From: a virus | IMG/VR virus record: IMGVR_UViG_3300027782_000279 | Span: 1 to 29,237 of that record | Strand: one strand, 5' to 3' | DNA length: 29,237 bases | In this document: positions 19,484 through 29,237 of the stretch, one piece after another | How the letters are laid out: each line of letters begins with the position of its first letter | Position numbering within the stretch: position 1 is the stretch's first letter | Program-made: the position numbers and the translations under genes | Notes under the pieces: model-generated | Database searches by the model: none | Told to the model about the DNA's origin: nothing | The model's input: only the letters and a program-made list of their open reading frames with translations

Positions 19484-20334
19484 TTGAGCTCAAGCGCCAC
19501 TCCGCAGCGGTGCTTGAAATACGCATCCCATACACCAGCACGACTAAAGCATTTGATTTCTTTTTGGCATCTGATATACATCTTGACAATCCTAAATGCA
19601 ACCGCAAGTTATTAGCAAAACACCTGGATGAAGCTGCTGCGAAGAAAGCACCTGCTTTATTCTTTGGTGATGTAATGTGCTTGATGCAAAGCAAAAGCGA
19701 TAAGCGCGGTAGCAAAGGTTCAATACGCCCAGAACACATAGGCGATAACTATTTTGATTTAGTGTTTAACGAAACCGCTAACTGGTTTAGCAATTGGAAA
19801 GACACAATTGTAATGATGAGCGACGGCAACCATGAAACATCAATATTAACTCACAATGAAATTGACCCGCTAGAAAATGTTACTAGGTTAATGCGTGAAC
19901 AAGGATCTAAAGTGCAGCATATGGCATATCAAGGTTTTATCTGGTTTACATTCATTCAACGTAATCCAGATGGTACAACTGGCAAAACACGTAGGGCTAC
20001 ACTGGCATTTCACCATGGTGCATGGTCAGGTGCGTCTAAATCAACCGGTCAAAAGTATTTTAATATTTTCCCGCAGGCTCAAATTGTCGTTAATGGGCAT
20101 AATCATGAGCGTTCAATTATTAGCCATCCTGCATATAATATTTCAGCTAATGGAACTCAGACAATCCAGAATCGCTGGGCATTGCAAACGGGTACTTACA
20201 AGGAAGAGTTTAAAAACGGGACGGGATTCGCCGTCGAGAAAATAGTGCTCCCGAAAAGTTTAGGAGGTTTATGGCTTAGACTAAGACCACGCGATTCCAA
20301 CGGCGTCGAAATTACCTGTGAGCCTGCAACATGA
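19480..20334 (+). CDS. Calcineurin-like metallophosphoesterase
   Basis: 284 residues from ATG 19480, which overlaps the endolysin stop as ATGA; upstream start choices lie inside the endolysin gene. The metal-binding set is complete: SD32-I-H34, FGD64 (in FFGDVM), GN117-H118-E, FHH178/179-G-A-W and GH207-N-H209. It is a two-metal hydrolase of the calcineurin superfamily, acting on phosphodiesters or phosphomonoesters; the substrate cannot be told. In phages such genes are often DNA- or nucleotide-processing enzymes, but here it lies in the lysis end of the late operon, next to an HNH nuclease. It is coupled to the next gene by ATGA. Confidence 0.82.
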   Translation: MIELKRHSAAVLEIRIPYTSTTKAFDFFLASDIHLDNPKCNRKLLAKHLDEAAAKKAPALFFGDVMCLMQSKSDKRGSKGSIRPEHIGDNYFDLVFNETANWFSNWKDTIVMMSDGNHETSILTHNEIDPLENVTRLMREQGSKVQHMAYQGFIWFTFIQRNPDGTTGKTRRATLAFHHGAWSGASKSTGQKYFNIFPQAQIVVNGHNHERSIISHPAYNISANGTQTIQNRWALQTGTYKEEFKNGTGFAVEKIVLPKSLGGLWLRLRPRDSNGVEITCEPAT

Positions 20335-20540
20335 ACCGCTACCTAGTAGAGATAAGCGCCATGATGGTAGTGGATAGCGAGTACTCATCAGATGATGTAG
20401 CAATCGGTATCGCCGCTAGGATAGAGGAAATCGCGCAATCAAACGCTCATTTATTAGATTACGAAATACTTCCATTCGAAATGCCGGAGCCTTATGAGCC
20501 ACCACATCAACGAAGAGAATCAGGAGCTGGTATCGCGTAA
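20331..20540 (+). CDS. Small hypothetical protein
   Basis: 69 residues, acidic, with the start overlapping the phosphoesterase stop (ATGA). The first half is a strand-helix pattern (YLVEISAMMVVDSEYSSDDVAIGIAARIEEIAQ) and the end (PEPYEPPHQRRES) is likely disordered. Family not recognised. It overlaps the HNH gene by 47 bases in another frame, which suggests that the HNH reading was added or that translation is coupled. Confidence 0.55.
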   Translation: MNRYLVEISAMMVVDSEYSSDDVAIGIAARIEEIAQSNAHLLDYEILPFEMPEPYEPPHQRRESGAGIA

Positions 20541-20841
20541 GGTAACAAAGCACAAGTTTAGAAAATCAATTATTGAAGAATGGAATAGTTGTTGTTACAT
20601 CTGCGGTGAACAGTTTACCAATATTACATTAGACCATATTGTACCTAAAAAAGCTGGTGGGCATACAAGCCGTAGCAATTTAGTTCCTTGTTGCAATTTG
20701 CACAATAGGACTAAGGGGCACTCGGAACTGTGGAGCTGGTGGACTAATCATGATTGCTGGGATCTGGGCCGTGCAATAAAGCTTTTAAGTTACCTGCGTC
20801 GTTGTGATAAAATTCCATTGCCTGATGATAAAATATCATAG
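20494..20841 (+). CDS. HNH endonuclease
   Basis: 115 residues. Zinc and catalytic elements are plain: C34-Y-I-C37, LDH48-I-V-P, N62-L-V-P and C67-N-L-H70-N-R-T-K-G. The second zinc pair is CxxH instead of the commoner CxxC. The first ~20 residues overlap the preceding small gene. Proteins of this size serve either as terminase-associated packaging nucleases or as mobile homing endonucleases. No terminase or intron boundary is visible here, so the role is open. The stop TAG lies inside the terminator hairpin at 20837-20867. Confidence 0.82.
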   Translation: MSHHINEENQELVSRKVTKHKFRKSIIEEWNSCCYICGEQFTNITLDHIVPKKAGGHTSRSNLVPCCNLHNRTKGHSELWSWWTNHDCWDLGRAIKLLSYLRRCDKIPLPDDKIS

Positions 20842-20950
20842 CCTGCCATGACTGGCTATGTTCTTTTACCACCCCCCCATTGGCATACGTTACCTGCCAT
20901 ATATAATGGCCATCCTTAGACTTAATGCGCTTGATAGTTGGTGTTTCCAT
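20744..20950 (-). CDS. Possible small leftward gene (uncertain)
   Basis: 68 residues: METPTIKRIKSKDGHYIWQV through GPDPSNHD. The first ~36 residues lie outside other genes and read like a natural protein (mixed strands, Lys-rich N-terminus). The rest is antisense to the HNH gene and passes through the terminator hairpin. No Shine-Dalgarno element precedes the ATG, and its start region lies in the -35 to -10 spacer of a promoter facing the other way. It is therefore reported only because it fills an otherwise empty 110 bases in a compact genome. It could equally be chance. Confidence 0.28.
   Translation of the reverse strand: METPTIKRIKSKDGHYIWQVTYANGGVVKEHSQSWQAMIFYHQAMEFYHNDAGNLKALLHGPDPSNHD
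20837..20867. terminator. Hairpin terminator at the end of the late operon
   Basis: A perfect 7-bp stem CATAGCC / GGCTATG (20837-20843 and 20854-20860) with a 10-nt loop is followed on the plus strand by TTCTTTT. On the minus strand the same hairpin is followed by ATATTTTATC, so it may act in both directions. It lies exactly at the HNH stop and would end the long rightward structural and lysis transcript. Confidence 0.65.
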
Positions 20951-20959
20951 TGTTAGAAT
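20931..20959 (+). promoter_or_regulatory. Sigma70-type promoter before the NblA-like gene
   Basis: TTGATA at 20931-20936 and TAGAAT at 20954-20959 (each 5 of 6 to consensus) are separated by exactly 17 bases. Transcription should begin near 20966, giving a leader of about 30 nt with GGAG at 20988-20991 before the NblA-like start. It lies downstream of the late terminator, so it would drive a separate short transcript readable by unmodified host RNA polymerase. Confidence 0.6.
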
Positions 20960-20994
20960 GCGGATAACTGCTAAATGTAGTGATGATGGAGTGG

Positions 20995-21222
20995 ATGGTG
21001 GTGCAGCTCAGTCTAGAGGAGCAGCTTGCACTCGAAGGCCAGAGCAGAATCGCCTTGAACTGCCCTGACCGTGAACAGGTCGCTAAATTATGCAGTAACT
21101 TAATAAAACAAAACGCACATCAATCTAAATTAATAAAGCAAGCCGTACATCATATTGCTGCTTTAGAAGCTACTTTATATCTTCAACAATCAAAGCGCCC
21201 GTGGTGGAGACGTGTGATTTAG
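20995..21222 (+). CDS. Small NblA/Ycf18-like protein (tentative)
   Basis: 75 residues from ATG 20995; GTG at 20998 or 21001, better spaced from GGAG (20988-20991), and ATG 20983/20986 are alternatives. It opens with (V)QLSLEEQLALEG, then PDREQVAKLCSNLIKQ and SKLIKQAVHHIAALE. In NblA the pattern is LSLEQQF near the N-terminus, a SREQA-type motif about 20 residues later and a second amphipathic helix ending in LLK/LIK. The spacing here matches with a one-residue shift. NblA targets phycobilisomes for ClpC-dependent degradation. The protein also has a basic C-terminal tail (RPWWRRVI) that NblA lacks. Identity is a by-eye resemblance only. Its last 53 bases are antisense to the sigma gene. Confidence 0.4.
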   Translation: MVVQLSLEEQLALEGQSRIALNCPDREQVAKLCSNLIKQNAHQSKLIKQAVHHIAALEATLYLQQSKRPWWRRVI

Positions 21223-22057
21223 ACATTAATTGCTTAAGCCTACGGTGTGTTCTTGTTATCTTTTGCCTTATACGTTCGCGGCATACGTTATGCTCCTTTG
21301 CAATTGCCGTGAAAGTTAAATCTTCATTGTAGCGTTTGTTTATTATATCTTGCTCCATATCAGTTAAATAAGATAGCGCAAGCTGTACATGTTCCTTACT
21401 ATGGTCCAAATCAAAATCAATATCCACCTCAGGGCTAGCAATTAAATCAAGCAATGAGTTGCCATCATCTGTTATCAGTTCGTCTAAACTAATATGAACG
21501 CTATTGCAATCGACTAATGCTAATAATTGCTCTATTGTTAAACCCATAACTTGAGCTAATTCTGTTTTACTTGGCTTGCGGCCATGTTCTTTCATGTATT
21601 CTGTTTCAATCTGTAATGCTTTAAACGTACGATCTATCATATGAATCGGTATTTTTATCATGCGCTCCTTGCTGTCAATAGCACGTTTTAATGATTGCCT
21701 AATCCACCAGTACGCATAGGTCGAAAACTTATACCCGCGTGATGCGTCAAATTTCTCTGCTGCACGTTGAAGGCCAATATTACCCTCCTGGCATAAATCC
21801 AACATATCCATTGATTTAATTCTGCCTGTATAACGCTTGGCAATATGTACAACCAAACGTAAATTGCAGTTTACCATGGTGGCCCGTGCCTTAAGGCCAG
21901 CTTTTATCAGCCGTTGCTCAGCAGGTGTTGGGGTAGTGTTATCGCGCAGCTCCATGTACTGCGCGATTTTACGTGCCAACTGTATCTCCTGCTGTGTTGT
22001 GAGCAACGGATACCTAGAGATGGCCTCTAGGTAATCGCGCATTGCATCAGCAGTCAT
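21170..22057 (-). CDS. Phage-encoded sigma factor of primary (RpoD/SigA-like) type
   Basis: 295 residues. Region 1.2 covers residues ~6-38 (MRDYLEAISRYPLLTTQQEI), region 2 covers ~50-128 with NLRLVVHIAKRY, LCQEGNIGLQRAAEKFD and the promoter-melting segment YKFSTYAYWWIRQSLKRAI. Region 3 follows at ~129-215 (IKIPIHMID, GRKPSKTELAQVMG), and region 4 at ~220-278 with the helix-turn-helix RERIRQ at 260-265. Region 1.1 is absent. This is the design of cyanobacterial group 1/2 sigma factors, unlike the reduced gp55-type factors of cyanomyoviruses. It should bind host core polymerase and direct it to phage promoters. It starts 3 bases after the SSB stop and is the last gene of the recombination operon. 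Confidence 0.9.
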   Translation of the reverse strand: MTADAMRDYLEAISRYPLLTTQQEIQLARKIAQYMELRDNTTPTPAEQRLIKAGLKARATMVNCNLRLVVHIAKRYTGRIKSMDMLDLCQEGNIGLQRAAEKFDASRGYKFSTYAYWWIRQSLKRAIDSKERMIKIPIHMIDRTFKALQIETEYMKEHGRKPSKTELAQVMGLTIEQLLALVDCNSVHISLDELITDDGNSLLDLIASPEVDIDFDLDHSKEHVQLALSYLTDMEQDIINKRYNEDLTFTAIAKEHNVCRERIRQKITRTHRRLKQLMSKSHVSTTGALIVEDIK

Positions 22058-22060
22058 GGG

Positions 22061-22411
22061 TTAAAAAGCGTCGAGTTCGTTCGTATTATTAGCAGCCCTT
22101 GGTAAAAATTCAAACCTGCTGACACTTATTATATGTTTACTACGCTTTTCACCTGTTTGCTTATCTGCCCATTCCTGACGCCGTATGGTGCCAGTAACTT
22201 GAATGCTGTCACCCTTTTTGCATTTATCGCATATTAATTCAGCCGATTTGCCCCATATTTCGCAGTCGATACCATTGTTAATGTATTCCCCATTTTTATC
22301 TTTGCCCTCACCGATACCACCGAACAGGTTGGCAACTTGCGTGCCATTGTCAAACGTGCGGATGGTGGGTTGCGTGATGATACGAACAATGCCGGTAGCA
22401 AATAAACTCAT
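22061..22411 (-). CDS. ssb: Single-stranded DNA-binding protein
   Basis: 116 residues with an OB-fold pattern: MSLFATGIVRIITQPTIR, then CEIWGKSAELICDKCKKGDSIQVTGTIRRQEW, then ISVSRFEFLP. The C-terminus NELDAF is a short acidic tip like that through which SSBs recruit partner enzymes. It protects single-stranded DNA during replication and RecT-type annealing. The start overlaps the stop of the HTH gene (ATGA) and the sigma gene follows at once. Confidence 0.88.
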   Translation of the reverse strand: MSLFATGIVRIITQPTIRTFDNGTQVANLFGGIGEGKDKNGEYINNGIDCEIWGKSAELICDKCKKGDSIQVTGTIRRQEWADKQTGEKRSKHIISVSRFEFLPRAANNTNELDAF

Positions 22412-22620
22412 GGCTTTAATGGGGTGATGTTGTGGGCGGCTTCAAAAGCCAGAATTTGTGTTAGCAAATAGCGAACACGCGGAGCACCAAGCGGTGAGGC
22501 TAGGCGTTCAGCGGTTTCATACGGTGGGCCAACTCCACGCGCACGTTGAGATTTTAAGGTAGAGGGCCGCAGCCCCCACCTAGCAGCTAACTGGTCAGTA
22601 GTCAGGTGGGGCTCAGTCAT
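22408..22620 (-). CDS. Small helix-turn-helix DNA-binding protein
   Basis: 70 residues from ATG 22620, which overlaps the RecT stop by 8 bases; the longer frame reaching back to 22659 lies inside RecT and is not needed. LTTDQLAARWGLRPSTLKSQRARGVGPPY is a MerR/excisionase-type HTH with wing residues, in which a first helix recognises position and QRARGVGPPY resembles the W-R..G.GP.Y wing. A helical tail (VRYLLTQILAFEAAH) follows. It may be a transcription regulator or a recombination accessory factor, encoded between annealase and SSB. Confidence 0.72.
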   Translation of the reverse strand: MTEPHLTTDQLAARWGLRPSTLKSQRARGVGPPYETAERLASPLGAPRVRYLLTQILAFEAAHNITPLKP

Positions 22621-23374
22621 CAGCGAATGGGTCAGCCTCTTGCCGGGTTCCCATAGCATCTTCTTTAGTTACTGCCATCTGCAATAACTCCTGATACTGC
22701 TCAGCGCTCAGGTCGTTTTGGCGTGCCTCTAGCCGTTTGGTAACAACTTCTAGCTCGTCTAACGTGCTGCATTTAGCAATCGCTGCTTTACCAGCAGCAA
22801 AAATCTTGGCATCGCCAGCAGGTGCAGCAGGTGCTAATGCTGGCGCAGGTGTTGCCGTTACCGTGACGGTCTCGGCCTGCTCCATTTCGTCGGAGCTATA
22901 CAAACCGCTGAGATCGGCGGGGAATGCCTTCCTGAGCGCCAATGCCTCGCTGCATTTAGCAATCATCGCCGCTGCCATCTTGGACCAAAGTCCCTGGTTG
23001 GCGTTGTAGTCGCGAAATAATGCTGTGCCGACAAATGGATGAGTAGAACCTTTGCGCCAGATGGTGGTCTTAGCGGCGGCAGGAGGCTTGCTGCCCAGCC
23101 ATACATCAGCCCAGATGCCATCGTCACCACACCATTCAGTTGAGCTGCCATCGAGCTGGCCCGTGCGTTCAGCAATACTGCGCAAACCATCGATTGACGT
23201 CTGTATCGTTAATTTGCCACTGCGCTTAATTGCGTATACCTGGCGGCTGAACGGATCCAACCCGGTGCGTTGGCACGCATAAGCAAAAAGCTTTAGCTCG
23301 TCGGATGTACACCCTGGGGCGATACTGGAGCTGATTAGCTGTTGCTGCTCCGGCGTCCATGTAATGGCGCTCAT
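22613..23374 (-). CDS. bet: RecT/Bet-family single-strand annealing protein
   Basis: 253 residues. The core YACQRTGLDPFSRQVYAIKR, KLTIQTSIDGLRSIAERTG and WSKMAAAMIAKCSEALALRKAFP is the conserved Bet/RecT signature. After residue ~165 comes an A/P-rich linker (TVTATPAPALAPAAPAG) and a C-terminal helical region ending in the acidic DPFADD, similar to SSB-interaction or regulatory tails. Bet proteins anneal complementary single strands, working with the 5'-3' exonuclease encoded directly upstream. It overlaps that gene (TAATG) and the next (8 bases). Confidence 0.92.
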   Translation of the reverse strand: MSAITWTPEQQQLISSSIAPGCTSDELKLFAYACQRTGLDPFSRQVYAIKRSGKLTIQTSIDGLRSIAERTGQLDGSSTEWCGDDGIWADVWLGSKPPAAAKTTIWRKGSTHPFVGTALFRDYNANQGLWSKMAAAMIAKCSEALALRKAFPADLSGLYSSDEMEQAETVTVTATPAPALAPAAPAGDAKIFAAGKAAIAKCSTLDELEVVTKRLEARQNDLSAEQYQELLQMAVTKEDAMGTRQEADPFADD

Positions 23375-24168
23375 TAGAAATCCTCTGATGTAATGGTTGT
23401 TTGGTCTTTTAATGCCCAGCCGGGAAGCTGTAGCGTCTGGATGCCGTCGGTGTATCCGGGGTAAAAATTAATAGCCCGGCAATCTTGAATAATCTGCAAA
23501 GCGTTATGGCGGGCAATACTGCCATGAATCAACGCTTCGGTATTTAGCTCATAGACACCAATTGCATACGGTGCAGTCTTTTCAACGGCAATAAACACGA
23601 AGCGCGTTGCCAGGGTCCCTGCAAGGTAGTGAGCGGCTTGAATCTGGTAACCAAAATTTGCTACTGCCTTAGCAAAACCGGTGGGTGATGCGTCTTGGCA
23701 CGTTTTCAAATCGACGATGGTTGCACCGTCAAACCAATCGGGGCGGCATTTGCATCTGAGGCCGGTGGGTATGTCGTCAAACCAAAACGACTGCTCAGCG
23801 GCGCCATCAGATAGCAGCAAGGCAGCAGTTGAGTTGCTGCGCACTGCATCAGCGATTTGCAATGCTTGCGCTAGATCGGCTTCAGATACCGCTTCAATGC
23901 CAGCGGCAGCCATCTCAATGACGGCGGCTTTGCCTTCCTTTGTACGCCTATCAGGCGCCAACTGGTAGCGTTTAGATAGCTCGTCTGGCTCCAATACGGC
24001 GCAATGGGCGAGGCTGCCAAATCGCATCGCGGCAGTGGGGACCATTGCTACACGGTTGGGATCTAAGTAGCGGCTCCAATAGTGGTAGGGGCTGCGGCTA
24101 ATTTCCTTTAGCTGGCTGGCACTAATCGCCGGGTCAGCGTGATAGTCGGCGTTGCTAATGTTGGTCAT
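23374..24168 (-). CDS. PD-(D/E)XK exonuclease (DUF3799/YqaJ-RecE-like)
   Basis: 264 residues. SNADYHADPAISASQLKEI at the N-terminus, RFGSLAHCAVLEP at 49-61, R142-P-D144-W and V152-D153-L-K155 form the active-site series (H55, D144, D153, K155), and GYQIQAAHYLAG follows. This is the RecE-like/DUF3799 form of the lambda exonuclease fold, which resects DNA ends to make the single strands that the adjacent Bet protein anneals. Its ATG overlaps the stop of the 35-residue microprotein (ATGA). Confidence 0.85.
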   Translation of the reverse strand: MTNISNADYHADPAISASQLKEISRSPYHYWSRYLDPNRVAMVPTAAMRFGSLAHCAVLEPDELSKRYQLAPDRRTKEGKAAVIEMAAAGIEAVSEADLAQALQIADAVRSNSTAALLLSDGAAEQSFWFDDIPTGLRCKCRPDWFDGATIVDLKTCQDASPTGFAKAVANFGYQIQAAHYLAGTLATRFVFIAVEKTAPYAIGVYELNTEALIHGSIARHNALQIIQDCRAINFYPGYTDGIQTLQLPGWALKDQTTITSEDF

Positions 24169-24272
24169 TGAGGTAGTTGGTAAATAGCTGTTGGCTGCTG
24201 TTGATTGCGACCATCAGCACAACCGATGGCGTACATGCTGAACCCAAGAAATAGGGCAATTAAGACTTTCAT
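24165..24272 (-). CDS. Lipoprotein-like microprotein
   Basis: 35 residues, MKVLIALFLGFSMYAIGC followed by a short polar tail (ADGRNQQQPTAIYQLPQ). The N-terminus is a textbook short signal peptide (one lysine, hydrophobic core) ending at Ala-Ile-Gly-Cys18, close to a lipobox. It starts inside an ATGA with the upstream 58-residue gene and stops inside an ATGA with the exonuclease gene, which strongly argues that it is translated. A lipid-anchored product at the cell surface could serve in superinfection exclusion; this is inference. Confidence 0.55.
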   Translation of the reverse strand: MKVLIALFLGFSMYAIGCADGRNQQQPTAIYQLPQ

Positions 24273-24445
24273 GCCAGCACCATCCGCACGCGATAGCGTG
24301 AAATCTGCATGTGATCGGCGATGCGTTGCTGGCTCCAGCCGTTGATGCGTAGACGGTTGACACGCTGCGGGGTTGTCTCGGTGAACCAGAGAACTATCAG
24401 GAGTGGCAGTAGCAAAACTGCTATCAAAATTGCAAGGGTGGTCAT
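24269..24445 (-). CDS. Membrane-anchored helix-turn-helix microprotein
   Basis: 58 residues. Residues 1-21 (MTTLAILIAVLLLPLLIVLWF) form a single transmembrane helix, and residues ~28-56 form an HTH of resolvase/recombinase type (RVNRLRINGWSQQRIADHMQ, then ISRYRVRMVL). It is the first gene of the recombination operon and overlaps the lipoprotein-like gene by ATGA. A membrane-tethered DNA-binding mini-protein is unusual. It might hold DNA or regulate this operon at the membrane. No Shine-Dalgarno element is near the ATG; AAGGAGG lies 28 bases upstream. Confidence 0.6.
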   Translation of the reverse strand: MTTLAILIAVLLLPLLIVLWFTETTPQRVNRLRINGWSQQRIADHMQISRYRVRMVLA

Positions 24446-24486
24446 GGCTTTCGGGTTGGGGCGGAAGCTCTCGCCTCCTTGCTCAT

Positions 24487-24522
24487 ATCCTACACCCTAG
24501 TTCGCTGTTGTCAACCCTAGTT
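24487..24522 (-). promoter_or_regulatory. Promoter with duplicated operator-like repeat
   Basis: Read on the minus strand, TTGACA (24514-24509) and TAGGAT (24492-24487) are 16 bases apart. The 9-base word AACTAGGGT occurs twice on that strand, beginning at 24522 and 24502, an exact 20-base period, with the -35 box between the copies. It would drive the leftward recombination and sigma operon. The first repeat includes the VRR-NUC stop codon. The repeat placement suggests repression by a dimeric DNA-binding protein. Confidence 0.5.
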
Positions 24523-24870
24523 GGTTGTAATGCTTAATAAATCCATCGCCTCGCCCACACTCCTTGCGACACCAGCAATTCCACCGGCTGCTTGCACTGC
24601 GTTAAGCCATTGCTGTTGCTCTGGGCGGATCCTGCCGGTGGCAGCTTTTACCTCAATGCTGGTAAATACTGCTATCTGCTGACCCACCATCTCAGGTGTA
24701 ATGGTGACGCTACGCCAGCCGATCAGGTCTGCTGAGCCTTTGCATAATCCAAAACTGACCGGGCGGCCATTTATATCCCGCAGCGTGCCGGTATTATTGC
24801 GAAACAGGCGGCAGTTGCCAATACTGCAAGCGAGCCTAATGTGTTGCTGGATTGTTTGTTCACTTGCCAC
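24517..24870 (-). CDS. VRR-NUC domain nuclease
   Basis: 117 residues, consistent with a stand-alone VRR-NUC domain. LFRNNTGTLRD at 22-32, GLCKGSADLIG with D48, SI-E73-V-K75 and GRIRPEQQQWL with Q85 form the PD-(D/E)XK active site. Stand-alone VRR-NUC proteins cut branched DNA and are frequent in phages beside SF2 helicases. It overlaps the SF2 helicase gene by 11 bases, so the two are likely made together. Confidence 0.88.
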   Translation of the reverse strand: MASEQTIQQHIRLACSIGNCRLFRNNTGTLRDINGRPVSFGLCKGSADLIGWRSVTITPEMVGQQIAVFTSIEVKAATGRIRPEQQQWLNAVQAAGGIAGVARSVGEAMDLLSITTN

Positions 24871-26206
24871 GCGCTGCTATTAAATGCCTAGCCCACCCTA
24901 TTGGATTCTTATATCCACGCTGTTGGCCTAATGCCACTAGCTGCTCCAACGACTGAGCACTGCCTTGCTCGCGGCGCTTGGTAACTGCCAGCTCCTTTAG
25001 CTCACCTTCTACAACCTTTAGCTCGCGCACCTCAGTGCGGAACTCATGGCCGCATTCGCCGCATACCGCTGCCAGTGTGGCGCAAGTGCTAAAGCATGTA
25101 GGGCACACCTTGACGCTGGGTGATGCTTCTCGGTCGCGTTTGGTGGCACCATCCAAGCTCCATTCACGTTCTTCTAGGTGATGCCCAAGCCGCAAGCTGT
25201 TGCCTACATGGTCCAAGATCACGGCACGCTTGCCTGGTTGCGGACGCAGGCATCTGCCGATCATCTGGAGATGCAACCCGACACTTGCGGTAGGGCGCAG
25301 CAATATGCAGCCGCCAACTGAGGGCACGTCTACGCCTTCACCGATAAGGGCGCAGGAGGTGAGCACCTTAAGGCTGCCGGTGCCGAGATCTATAAGCAAC
25401 TGGCGGCGGCGAGCGCTATCGGTATTGCCATCGATACTGGCAGCGGCAATACCTGCATCCTGAAACAATCGCGCCACCGCTTCGGCATGAGCGACTGAAC
25501 AACAGAATGCAATCGCGGTTTGGCCTGCGAGGTGTTGCCGGTAATGCGTCAGGCAGTCGCCCATCGCCTGGCCCTGCTGCAATAGCTCACCGGCTTGGCC
25601 CATATCAAAATCACCCATACGTTTACGCAAACCAGCGCTACTGAAGCCCGGCGGAGCCAGCACGCGAGCCGGGGCTAAGAATCCGTTTTCGGTTAGCCAT
25701 GCAGCACTAGGCCCTTGCACCATCGACTGGTAATGCTCACCCAGGCCGCGACCATCACCTCTAATAGGTGTAGCCGTAACGCCTAGCAGTTTGGCAGCCT
25801 GGAAATGCTGGATGATCTTGGCCCAGGTGCCAGCCGTAGTGTGGTGCGCCTCATCAACCACCAAAAGCTGAAAGAAATCCCTGGGCAGCAGGTGCAAACG
25901 TCGTGACAATGTACCGACACTTGCAACCTGCACCGCATGGGATAAATCCATGCCACGTTTTGCGGCAATAATTCCATGCTGCACATCCATGCCAGCAAGG
26001 CTCCGGCTGGCTTGATCCAGCAACTCTTGCCTATGCACCAAAATGCAAACGCGGTTGCCTTTACGTGCCGCAGCCTGGGCAATGTATGAGAAGCACACGG
26101 TCTTACCGCCTCCGGTGGGCAGTACCGCCAGCACTGAGCGCTTGCCTAGTTGGTACTGCAAACGGATATCGGTAATAAGTTGTTGCTGGTATGGGCGGAG
26201 GTTCAT
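24860..26206 (-). CDS. SF2 DEAH-box helicase with zinc ribbon
   Basis: 448 residues. Walker A PTGGGKT (30-36), motif Ia VHRQELLDQA, DEAH (118-121), TATP (144-147) and motif VI Q314-M-I-G-R-C-L-R321 define an SF2 helicase related to the Rad25/UvsW/SSL2 group. A four-cysteine ribbon follows at C368, C371, C382 and C385, then a helical tail. Phage helicases of this type remodel forks and recombination intermediates. It is coupled to the SF1 helicase gene by ATGA and overlaps the nuclease gene. Confidence 0.9.
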   Translation of the reverse strand: MNLRPYQQQLITDIRLQYQLGKRSVLAVLPTGGGKTVCFSYIAQAAARKGNRVCILVHRQELLDQASRSLAGMDVQHGIIAAKRGMDLSHAVQVASVGTLSRRLHLLPRDFFQLLVVDEAHHTTAGTWAKIIQHFQAAKLLGVTATPIRGDGRGLGEHYQSMVQGPSAAWLTENGFLAPARVLAPPGFSSAGLRKRMGDFDMGQAGELLQQGQAMGDCLTHYRQHLAGQTAIAFCCSVAHAEAVARLFQDAGIAAASIDGNTDSARRRQLLIDLGTGSLKVLTSCALIGEGVDVPSVGGCILLRPTASVGLHLQMIGRCLRPQPGKRAVILDHVGNSLRLGHHLEEREWSLDGATKRDREASPSVKVCPTCFSTCATLAAVCGECGHEFRTEVRELKVVEGELKELAVTKRREQGSAQSLEQLVALGQQRGYKNPIGWARHLIAARGK

Positions 26207-27621
26207 CGGTCAGCTACCACATGCAAGCTTTCCGCCGATCTTGTAATACCCACATAGGCCAATTGGTTTTGCCTCGCGGATGGCATAGAGTCCCATCCGT
26301 CTACATCCCAATGCAAGAAAACGTTTTTAAAGGTTGAACCTTGCGACTTATGAATAGTCAATGCTGATACTGGTTCAAGCCTGCCTATCTGGTCTTGACG
26401 CTGAAAAAACATTTTCCACCATGCTTTTTTGCCGTCTGGGTCCTCACAATTTTTAGCTGCATCTGCAAATTGTTTTTGTATTTTTCGCCAACGTGGCTCT
26501 TCTTCCTTCTCAAGGACTCTAACCTCTATAATTTTGCCCTCATCAAACATTTCAACTTCTAAAAGCCAAGTCCTCCACGGTTCAATATCTAAGCAATCAA
26601 AAGGAGCTGTAAAAATGTCAATCTCTGCATTGCGTATATAAACCTCAACAGTGCTGTTTAACAATATGCCACCAGTTGGATCAGGTATTGCATCAACAGT
26701 AACGCAAGCCATACCTGCTAAATATTGAGGTGCATTTATACCATATTTACGACTATGAATTTTTTGGTTTAATTCTAAAACGTTTTTGTTAGTCCATGCC
26801 AAAACGCGGCAATAGTCAGGGTCATCGACAGATTCCGCAGACGCCATCATTTCAAGCAAAGATGCCAACCATTGATCCCTTCTCAAATATGTAACAACTT
26901 GAGAACCTCCTCCGCGTTTGTCAATAAACTTTGCTCGGCCAACAGAAAGCAACCTAGTGTCAGTAGCTAAATTTAGTATTGCGCCATCGTGTCGCAATAC
27001 TTTGTTTAATTTATAAATTGAGCTTGCGTCAACAAACGCAGCGCAAACTTTATCTTCTTTCACTGGCAGCAATTGGCGATCATCGCCAACAAAAACTACA
27101 GGCCGCGCATCAGCTTCAGAAATCAAAGTTTCGTAAAGCTCTTTATGTAGCATCGATGTTTCGTCAACAATTACAACATCAATTTTTTTGGTATTTGCTT
27201 CTTTATATTCGGCCCAAGTTTCGTCAGTCTTTTCTAGCAAGTAATCATCCCAAGTTTTTTTGCGTATGCCATCTGAAAGCAAATTTTGGCCTTTAAAATC
27301 AGGTTTGAATGATTCTTCGCCTGTTATGTAATCCCTAACTTGTTTCAAGCCAAGCAAACGGTGAACCGTCACGCATTCAAAATCCCTTGCGCCGTTTGCC
27401 TCTAAAGCTTTTTCAACTTGTGCCCGTGCTTTGTGAGTTGGCGTTGAAACAACAACAGTTAATCCAATTGTTTTTAATGCAACAACTAAAGCCGCAGTTG
27501 TGACTGTTTTGCCTGTGCCGGCATAACCACATAACATAATTCGAGCTTTAGGCTGCTGGATGTCTTGCAATATTCCTTCTATAACTTGTTCTTGGTCTTG
27601 CGTTAGTTTTAATTCAGGCAT
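26203..27621 (-). CDS. SF1 helicase (RecD2/Dda-like)
   Basis: 472 residues. GYAGTGKT (32-39), TPTHKARAQVEKAL (motif Ia), VDETSM (152-157), GDDRQLLPV (179-187), LRHDGAIL (motif IV-like), HKSQGSTF (424-431) and YVGITR (456-461) define an SF1B helicase like T4 Dda. Dda is a 5'-3' helicase that removes bound proteins and loads recombination enzymes. ATG at 27621-27619 is the first gene of this leftward block. Codon content and length are ordinary for the family. It ends in ATGA with the SF2 helicase. Confidence 0.9.
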   Translation of the reverse strand: MPELKLTQDQEQVIEGILQDIQQPKARIMLCGYAGTGKTVTTAALVVALKTIGLTVVVSTPTHKARAQVEKALEANGARDFECVTVHRLLGLKQVRDYITGEESFKPDFKGQNLLSDGIRKKTWDDYLLEKTDETWAEYKEANTKKIDVVIVDETSMLHKELYETLISEADARPVVFVGDDRQLLPVKEDKVCAAFVDASSIYKLNKVLRHDGAILNLATDTRLLSVGRAKFIDKRGGGSQVVTYLRRDQWLASLLEMMASAESVDDPDYCRVLAWTNKNVLELNQKIHSRKYGINAPQYLAGMACVTVDAIPDPTGGILLNSTVEVYIRNAEIDIFTAPFDCLDIEPWRTWLLEVEMFDEGKIIEVRVLEKEEEPRWRKIQKQFADAAKNCEDPDGKKAWWKMFFQRQDQIGRLEPVSALTIHKSQGSTFKNVFLHWDVDGWDSMPSARQNQLAYVGITRSAESLHVVADR

Positions 27622-27632
27622 TACTAATGCGC

Positions 27633-27652
27633 TTATGGCTTGCCAACCATAA
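27633..27652. repeat. Short perfect inverted repeat in the divergent region
   Basis: TTATGG at 27633-27638 and CCATAA at 27647-27652 form a 6-bp inverted repeat with an 8-base centre, between the leftward helicase start and the RHH gene. It could be an operator half-site pair or a small hairpin. Its size is compatible with chance, so it is only noted. Confidence 0.35.
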
Positions 27653-27658
27653 CACTAT

Positions 27659-27685
27659 CCGCTAGGGTCTGCAAGTAACCGCTAG
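27659..27685 (+). promoter_or_regulatory. Duplicated CCGCTAG element upstream of the RHH gene
   Basis: CCGCTAG occurs at 27659-27665 and again at 27679-27685, a 20-base period, just upstream of the GTG at 27691. The first copy continues as CTAGGGT, the same 7-mer present twice at the 24.5 kb promoter. A weak promoter reading is possible: TTGCCA (27640-27645), 17 bases, TAGGGT (27663-27668), so the repeat would overlap the -10 box. It may let the RHH protein control itself and the leftward helicase gene. Confidence 0.4.
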
Positions 27686-27690
27686 CGACC

Positions 27691-27840
27691 GTGACCCTAT
27701 CCCATCCATTAGCAGTGCAGTTTACGCCAGAGCAGGTAGCGTGGCTAGACAGCCGCCGCGTAGCAGGTTTAACCCGTAGTGCCGTAATACGCCTAGTGGT
27801 TGAAGAAGCAATGCGACAGGCCAAGCGCACACAAAAATGA
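27691..27840 (+). CDS. Ribbon-helix-helix DNA-binding protein
   Basis: 49 residues from GTG 27691 (stop TAA at 27676-27678 precedes it in frame; GTG 27715 is a shorter alternative). A strand LAVQFTPEQVAWL is followed by helix-turn-helix segments RRVAGLTRSAVIRLVVEEAMRQA, the pattern of CopG/Arc-type repressors. Its stop overlaps the primase start as ATGA, and it lies immediately behind a duplicated CTAG element. It is a good candidate for a small operon repressor. A longer leftward open frame on the other strand (27633-27887) is judged a shadow. Confidence 0.65.
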   Translation: MTLSHPLAVQFTPEQVAWLDSRRVAGLTRSAVIRLVVEEAMRQAKRTQK

Positions 27841-29237
27841 ATATTCAAGAACTCACCAACGGCAGGTGGCCCGACCTGCTGGCGCATTTTTGCGGCCTTA
27901 CAGCATCACAGCTCACCGATAAGCACCAGCCTTGCCCACTTTGCGGCGGTGAAGACCGTTACCGCTTTGATGATTTAGACGGCAACGGCTCATGGTTTTG
28001 CAATCAATGCGGCGGTAAAGACCTCGCAGGTGGTGGAGGCAATGGCATGGATATGCTCATGCGGCACCAGAAATGGCCTTTTGTTGAAGCTTGCAAACGC
28101 ATAGAGCAGCATCTAGGCATTAGGCCAGAACCGCCAATCAAAAACGCTGAGCATGTTTGGCGGTACAACGATGATTTTTATGTTTGCAGGTTTCCTGGTA
28201 AGCGCATCAGACCCCTCTGGTTTGATGGCACCGAATGGAAGTGGACCGCACCTCCAGCGCCTCGCCCTTTGTACAACCTTGACTCGCTAAGCCAACGGCC
28301 AGATGCGCCTGTATTAATAGTCGAAGGCGAAAAGACCGCTGATGCAGCCGCCAATCTGTTCCCACATGCTGTAGTAATTACATGGCCTAGCGGTTGCAAA
28401 GCGCATGGCAAAGCCAATTGGGCACCAATAGCAAATCGTAAATGCGTGTTATGGCCTGATGCTGATGACGCAGGCCGCGACGCAATGGCGAAATTAGTGC
28501 CGCGACTTATTGCCGCTGGTGCCGATCAAATACGTATGGTCCAGCCACCTTCTGATGTTGAAAGCGGTTGGGATCTTGCAGATTGCGATTGGACCGCAGC
28601 CGAAGCTGGTGCTTATTACAAAGCCAACCGCACGCCACCGATTGAATTTCCAGCCGTAATCAAAGCTGAACCCTTACCGGAACCTGCGCTAGAGCCGCCG
28701 CCTTTACCGAAAGCCGATGAATCATTTCTATGTCTTGGGTTTGATGCTGATGCTTATTACTACCAACCCCATAGCACCGGCCAAGTAACGCGCCTTTCGC
28801 GTTCAGCTCACTCAGGTGTAAACCTAGTAGCACTAGCACCGTTGCCTTATTGGGAATCGTTATACCCATCAAAAGTTGGTGTAAACTGGACCGCCGCCGC
28901 ATCTAGCCTATTTGCACGCCAGGCTGATATTGGCGTTTACTCCCCTGATCGCATCCGTGGCCGTGGCGCATGGTGGGATCAAAAGCAATCTGTCCTGCAC
29001 CTCGGCGATAAATTAGTTGTTAATGGCATAAACCGGCCCATACGTGATGGGATCAGCGGCAGCCCGTACCTATATCAACGCCTTAGCGCCTTACGTGGCT
29101 GCGCTGGTGTCGAGCCATTAACCGATAATGAAGCCTTTTCAATTGCTGAATTAGCAGAACGCTTCCACTGGGAAGTGCCTGCATCTGGCCTACTGCTTGC
29201 CGGTTGGGTAGTGCTAGGCCCCATCTGCGGTGCATTG
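27837..29237 (+). CDS. Zinc-finger/TOPRIM DNA primase, 5' part (partial)
   Basis: 467 codons are open to the window edge, with no stop. Residues 33-58 form a zinc-binding domain of the primase-helicase type (C33-P-L-C36 and C55-N-Q-C58). A TOPRIM core follows: LIVE163-G-E165-K-T near 160-168 and WPD208-A-D210-D-A-G near 206-213, with a GWDLADCDW element at 244-252. Later residues (~290-467) have no motif I can name, though DADAYYYQPHSTGQVTRLS recalls DUF927-like regions that precede a helicase in phage primase-helicases. It probably primes phage replication; whether a helicase domain follows cannot be seen here. Confidence 0.85.
   Translation, partial: MNIQELTNGRWPDLLAHFCGLTASQLTDKHQPCPLCGGEDRYRFDDLDGNGSWFCNQCGGKDLAGGGGNGMDMLMRHQKWPFVEACKRIEQHLGIRPEPPIKNAEHVWRYNDDFYVCRFPGKRIRPLWFDGTEWKWTAPPAPRPLYNLDSLSQRPDAPVLIVEGEKTADAAANLFPHAVVITWPSGCKAHGKANWAPIANRKCVLWPDADDAGRDAMAKLVPRLIAAGADQIRMVQPPSDVESGWDLADCDWTAAEAGAYYKANRTPPIEFPAVIKAEPLPEPALEPPPLPKADESFLCLGFDADAYYYQPHSTGQVTRLSRSAHSGVNLVALAPLPYWESLYPSKVGVNWTAAASSLFARQADIGVYSPDRIRGRGAWWDQKQSVLHLGDKLVVNGINRPIRDGISGSPYLYQRLSALRGCAGVEPLTDNEAFSIAELAERFHWEVPASGLLLAGWVVLGPICGAL

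Follow-up and report, generated by a model that had tools for sequence, protein, structure and literature searches.

A sigma-70 factor with regions 1.2 to 4 and cyanobacterial group 2 ancestry, facing a conserved small gene at the presumed early/late junction of an uncultured virus

The window considered here is the whole of the 29,237-base IMG/VR virus record IMGVR_UViG_3300027782_000279. In its last third, a block of genes read from the minus strand ends with a sigma-70 factor gene, which meets a small gene read from the opposite strand. The genes around this junction are the following.

20744-20950, minus strand: 68-aa gene, phrog_36325, a recurrent neighbour at the junction (PHROG and neighbourhood comparison)
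20980-21222, plus strand: small convergent gene, remotely NblA-like, of 80 aa (79 if the following ATG is the start)
21170-21222, shared by the two strands: 3'-3' overlap of the sigma and small genes, 53 bases by ORF coordinates
21170-22057, minus strand: sigma-70 factor gene, group-2-like, 295 aa (Pfam, PHROG, tree)
22061-22411, minus strand: single-strand DNA-binding protein (SSB) gene, directly upstream of the sigma gene (Pfam SSB, 8.8e-15)
22613-23374, minus strand: RecT gene (Pfam RecT, 6e-30)
23374-24168, minus strand: exonuclease VIII-like gene (phrog_412, 1.5e-85)
24517-24870, minus strand: VRR-NUC nuclease gene, also in this strand block (Pfam, 2.1e-10)
26203-27621, minus strand: Dda-like helicase gene, the first large one in this block (phrog_325, 4.7e-72)

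A sigma factor sets which genes the host RNA polymerase transcribes. The sigma gene starts with ATG and runs through 295 codons with no internal stop. Its product matches the PHROG sigma factor family phrog 351 at 6e-75, and contains four Pfam regions, each of them above the curated gathering cut-off, so that the full set of regions 1.2 to 4 claimed in a preliminary description of the sequence is borne out. There is no region 1.1, and the N-terminus corresponds to region 1.2. The regions and one codon of special interest are placed as follows, all on the minus strand.

21950-22048, minus strand: region 1.2, residues 4-36 (PF00140 Sigma70_r1_2, 1.1e-9)
21662-21877, minus strand: region 2, residues 61-132, for core binding, melting and -10 reading (PF04542, 6.9e-21)
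21686-21688, minus strand: codon of lysine 124, which corresponds to T440 of E. coli RpoD, a -12 reading position (residue table)
21431-21613, minus strand: region 3, residues 149-209 (PF04539, 8.6e-7)
21230-21379, minus strand: region 4, residues 227-276, for -35 reading (PF04545, 6.3e-11)

Among solved structures, the chains closest in sequence belong to primary sigma factors. A structure model built from 30 relatives likewise retrieves the sigma chains of initiation complexes, including those of Synechococcus and Synechocystis SigA; its pTM is low (0.46), and it is informative for the domains and not for their arrangement. Among near relatives, residues 1-260 show a dN of 0.005-0.042 against a dS of 0.11-0.69. 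On these rates the gene is under strong purifying selection across all regions, and a chance open reading frame is excluded. The tail past region 4 is variable among the same relatives.

The residue table, in E. coli RpoD numbering, allows the contacts of the protein to be followed one by one. The window sigma retains the equivalents of D403, Q406 and E407, which are core-binding positions, of Y425, F427, T429, Y430, W433, W434 and Q437, which serve in melting and in reading of the -10 element, and of R584, E585, R588 and Q589, which read the -35 element. Loss of such residues from regions 2 and 4 had been named beforehand as a point against a working factor; in the alignment they are retained. 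The earlier view that region 2.4 is nearly that of primary sigma factors stands for these contact residues, but it had missed one change, the lysine at the T440 equivalent. The window and 9/9 near relatives have this lysine, and no sequence among 77 from other phages, 35 of host group 2 factors and 16 of primary sigma factors does; the same position is T in the sigma factor of phage KBS-S-2A, C in that of S-CBS1 and S in that of S-CBS3. The change is thus seen only in the near family of the window sigma, where it may shift the preference at -12. In addition, compared with KBS-S-2A or S-CBS1, the region 4.1 loop is shortened by four residues.

The place of the gene had been described as the end of a recombination operon, and this holds: it is the last gene after those for exonuclease, RecT and SSB. 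The same arrangement, with the sigma gene closing the recombination operon opposite a late module that contains lysozyme, recurs across contigs and in KBS-S-2A and S-CBS1. Since the sigma gene is last in an early operon and opposite the late module, a role in a switch to late transcription can be inferred. The sigma factor would be produced at the end of early/middle transcription, join the host RNA polymerase core in competition with the host sigma factor, and steer the enzyme to phage late promoters beyond the window, where the start of the late genes lies.

Several other features of these genomes may be mentioned. Upstream of the early strand block (27560-27960), repeated CTAGCGG elements surround a promoter-like TTGCAG-N17-TATGGT, and a 49-aa ORF on the plus strand (27691-27840) resembles by eye a ribbon-helix-helix repressor; genomes G081 and G084 have similar elements and a similar ORF. 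The 203-base gap before the tape measure gene (2526-2728), of equal length in G081 and G084, is perhaps a frameshift extension of the tail assembly chaperone. After the primase gene in G080 (25699-25884), G084 (22358-22543) and G085 (34055-34266), an AT-rich intergenic stretch is surrounded by TTGCGTCC/GGACGCAA in many copies, which by eye resembles an iteron-type replication origin.

The promoters of the junction give less information. One site of sigma-70 type is found ahead of the small gene.

20931-20959, plus strand: sigma-70-like promoter site TTGATA-N17-TAGAAT, ahead of the small gene and found in each of the six near genomes

As evidence, this conservation is weak, because the -35 part of the site lies inside the divergent gene at 20744-20950 and may be conserved partly as coding sequence. 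No motif upstream of the small gene is common to the window and distant relatives, and consensus promoter-like sites across 20000-29237 occur at chance level. When the intergenic regions of 11 genomes are scanned, promoter-like sites that have T at -12 are more numerous than in shuffled sequences, which are a rough control that keeps base pairs in blocks only, and sites with other -12 bases are not enriched. Neither the scan of 20000-29237, nor the comparison upstream of the small gene, nor the intergenic regions of the 11 genomes yielded a late promoter motif.

These data also bear on a different role, in which the sigma factor would mainly redirect host genes, mimicking a stress-type group 2 factor, while host SigA would transcribe the late genes of the phage. 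At the -35 contacts, and at almost all -10 contacts, the residues match those of host factors, and the excess of T-12 sites would fit such a role, as would two reports on other phages: the genes of Ma-LMM01 are all read via host sigma-70-like promoters (PMC5780444), and S. elongatus expressing the S-CBS3 sigma factor is reported to have altered growth and metabolism (Sawa 2019, as summarised in PMC10452541). However, the T-12 excess comes largely from a single orthologous site that recurs in six near genomes, the T440-equivalent lysine is absent from host factors, and the position of the gene is fixed at the end of the recombination operon, opposite the late module. Host redirection as the main function is on balance rather unlikely. 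A sigma-like protein that does not start transcription, and acts instead as a decoy for the host core polymerase or as its appropriator, is improbable: the lysine and the shortened region 4.1 loop could be read in this way, but all melting and -35 residues are retained, and strong purifying selection extends over all regions, which would be needless in a pure core binder. A late-switch role of the sigma factor agrees with its fixed place.

The ancestry was examined with sigma factors from 3 or 4 genomes of cyanobacteria, several of Cyanobiaceae and one of a melainabacterium. A first tree, in which the window sigma fell outside group 3, also held group 3, P-SS2 and other long rows whose long branches attracted each other, and it was rebuilt without them. 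The resulting main tree has 84 rows and is rooted on non-cyanobacterial SigA. In it, the 29 phage rows, including the window, S-CBS1, S-CBS3 and KBS-S-2A, form one clade (support 99/92), which is grouped at 100/99 with three group 2 clades made up only of Cyanobiaceae. This larger group is separate from cyanobacterial SigA and from the clade with the other group 2 types. The phylogeny with groups 1 to 3, envisaged in the preliminary description, thus places the sigma with group 2, outside group 1 and group 3. In AU tests, whose groups were named after the first tree had been seen and whose p values are a guide only, joining the phage to the clade with the other group 2 types was rejected (p 0.0009), and joining them to the main Cyanobiaceae clade was not (p 0.14). 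The sigma factors of S-LBS1 and S-CBS2, when added to the tree, and that of P-SS2 are too diverged to be placed.

The comparison with the cyanobacterial group 2 factors of the SigB-SigE type agrees with this result. They share with the window sigma the absence of region 1.1, the presence of regions 1.2 to 4, the affinity in the tree and, except for the T440 equivalent, a group 1-like region 2.4. The window sigma scores 239.6 bits against TIGR02997, a model of the cyanobacterial RpoD/SigA family with a cut-off of 384.5, so that it is best called group-2-derived and not a member of that subfamily. Group 2 ancestry of the phage sigma clade is supported by these trees, and its source was probably picocyanobacterial, in an old event; which host clade is the exact sister is unsure, given the long branches. 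Of the origin proposed earlier, the ancestry stands, with the phage clade nested among Cyanobiaceae group 2 factors, and the implied fresh acquisition does not. Recent capture of a still host-specific sigma by this phage alone is very improbable and was rejected, since its resemblance to the group 2 factors of hosts (37-44% identity, with no host protein above 44% in 61 Cyanobiaceae genomes) is set against one deep phage clade and near relatives in 13 IMG/VR loci.

Those 13 loci are at 90-98% identity to the window sigma, and a profile scan of IMG/VR found sigma relatives at no fewer than 80 loci, down to 38% identity among the matches listed. With relatives in dozens of contigs at 38-98% identity, the window sigma is not exceptional. 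Nor is it exceptional among isolated cyanophages, as had been supposed, because the same gene is found in the same place in isolated cyanosiphoviruses. The best tblastn matches among phage records are KBS-S-2A, S-CBS3 and S-CBS1, at 40-42% identity; matching records of Klebsiella, Acinetobacter and Salmonella resemble host RpoD genes and were used as references only. The Synechococcus siphoviruses KBS-S-2A, S-CBS1, S-CBS3 and S-LBS1 carry a sigma factor in a comparable setting, annotated as "group 2 RNA polymerase sigma factor" in S-CBS1 and S-CBS3, as "RpoD" in KBS-S-2A and as "cyanobacterial RpoD-like" in S-LBS1.

The proteins of KBS-S-2A (CPKG_00011), S-CBS1 (gp27) and S-CBS3 (gp29) have the same regions as the window sigma and belong to the same clade. 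In KBS-S-2A and S-CBS1 the gene is also placed after exonuclease/RecT and opposite a small gene, as in the window, whereas in S-CBS3 the small gene is absent beside it. S-LBS1 has the order of the window (lysozyme, small genes, convergent sigma), but its protein, SLBS1_A33, is highly diverged and, unlike the window sigma, cannot be placed with the phage clade. In the cyanosiphovirus P-SS2, ORF113 is a sigma factor gene near SSB, as in the window, with about 29% identity and a very long branch. The T4-type gp55 is a reduced sigma factor, whereas the window sigma has regions 1.2 to 4 complete; a role as late factor is likely to be common to both. One further record, Microcystis phage MaAM05 (MW495066.1, locus L251), has a sigma gene amid ycf3 and mshA, and may contain host DNA. 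Bacterial-type sigma genes have been described before from isolates of cyanobacterial viruses, and the window sigma is a further case: the group 2 sigma of P-SS2 was published in 2009 (PMC2784084), KBS2A in 2013 (PMC3751600) and S-LBS1 in 2018 (PMC6157547), and by the count of one review 65 of 153 cyanophage genomes have putative sigma factors (PMC10452541).

Taken together, the window sigma would be a functional sigma-70 factor, adapted to the phage and descended from cyanobacterial group 2 factors, whose lineage is common to small cyanosiphoviruses and which has a role in late transcription, a reading to which we give a probability of about 0.68. The reported effect of the S-CBS3 relative on S. 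elongatus also counts in favour of this reading.

The second gene of the junction is the small one. Its 53-base antisense overlap with the sigma gene is exact in the window. In a survey of viral loci chosen by their sigma gene, small-gene homologs lie on the opposite strand downstream of sigma at 73 of 91 loci (73/87 with four truncated loci set aside), a count that includes many near-copies and so overstates the independent cases; the 33 aligned members are nevertheless diverse. At two loci the arrangement is irregular: in L116 the small-gene match is interrupted by a stop close to its beginning, and in L163 the small gene lies about 980 bases past the end of the measured sigma frame. At the other 71 of the 73 loci the two genes touch or overlap, by 0-177 nt. 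L123 and L149, which gave no match in the search, carry a diverged homolog at a greater distance, again opposite in strand to sigma; there, two extra genes on the sigma strand, the first nucleotide kinase-like by eye, stand between it and sigma. In S-LBS1 a diverged homolog overlaps the sigma gene by 24 nt.

Purifying selection acts on the small gene among near relatives. Between the window and its close relatives L011-L013, an indel of one base close to the stop codon of the sigma gene produces two different C-terminal tails and an overlap of 53 or 33 bases. Because its length varies and shifts in this way, the overlap itself looks incidental, while the convergent pair is conserved; interference between the two transcripts, suggested earlier, is conceivable. 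Such conservation need not mean a functional link, since other genes of the junction are conserved too and the loci were selected by sigma.

The NblA-like nature of the small gene, proposed earlier, stands as a remote and indirect relationship. No Pfam family matches it, and none of the 33 members matches NblA (PF04485). At a threshold of E 0.01, its profile finds an uncharacterised family of 60-80 aa in 36 of the 101 Cyanobiaceae genomes searched, some of the weaker matches perhaps being due to chance; members of this family (L303-L312) have no Pfam match and are kin to the small gene and, remotely, to NblA. Against canonical NblA the family has a profile score of 25.8, where shuffled controls reach at most 14.6. 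Directly compared with NblA, the small-gene profile gives a weak match (probability 5.5%, E 0.007; 0/60 shuffles as high), and by way of the Cyanobiaceae family the probabilities are 97% and then 56%. A check of four Cyanobiaceae genomes for canonical NblA (PF04485) found none. The start motif of the small gene is in register with that of NblA (LSLEEQL against LSLEQQF), and the protein is modelled as two helices (pLDDT 79, pTM 0.46), with which fold searches, including PDB, gave no useful match. It is thus fair to take "NblA-like" as a lead and not as membership, and to describe the gene as a conserved junction gene.

A more tentative proposal, unlikely as a whole, joins the two genes into one unit at the early/late junction of small cyanosiphoviruses. 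Here the protein facing the phage-lineage, group-2-derived sigma, kin of an uncharacterised picocyanobacterial family and remotely NblA-like, would regulate the sigma factor or tie the late switch to the breakdown of light-harvesting complexes, and in the near family the sigma would read -12 differently through the T440 lysine. The recurrent face-to-face pairing of a sigma gene with a small NblA-like gene was not found described in the literature searched, nor was any test of late-gene activation in cyanosiphoviruses found there.

For the cyanosiphoviruses, the finding amounts to one old, full-size, group-2-derived sigma lineage, shared by isolates and many uncultured contigs, with a recurrent place and under strong selection. 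Since isolates carry this lineage, the late-switch question can be tested in existing ones, such as KBS-S-2A and S-CBS1. The comparison also brings to light a conserved, unannotated small gene opposite sigma, with relatives in picocyanobacterial genomes. Of most interest, and worth following, is the facing pair that this gene, remotely NblA-like, forms with sigma.
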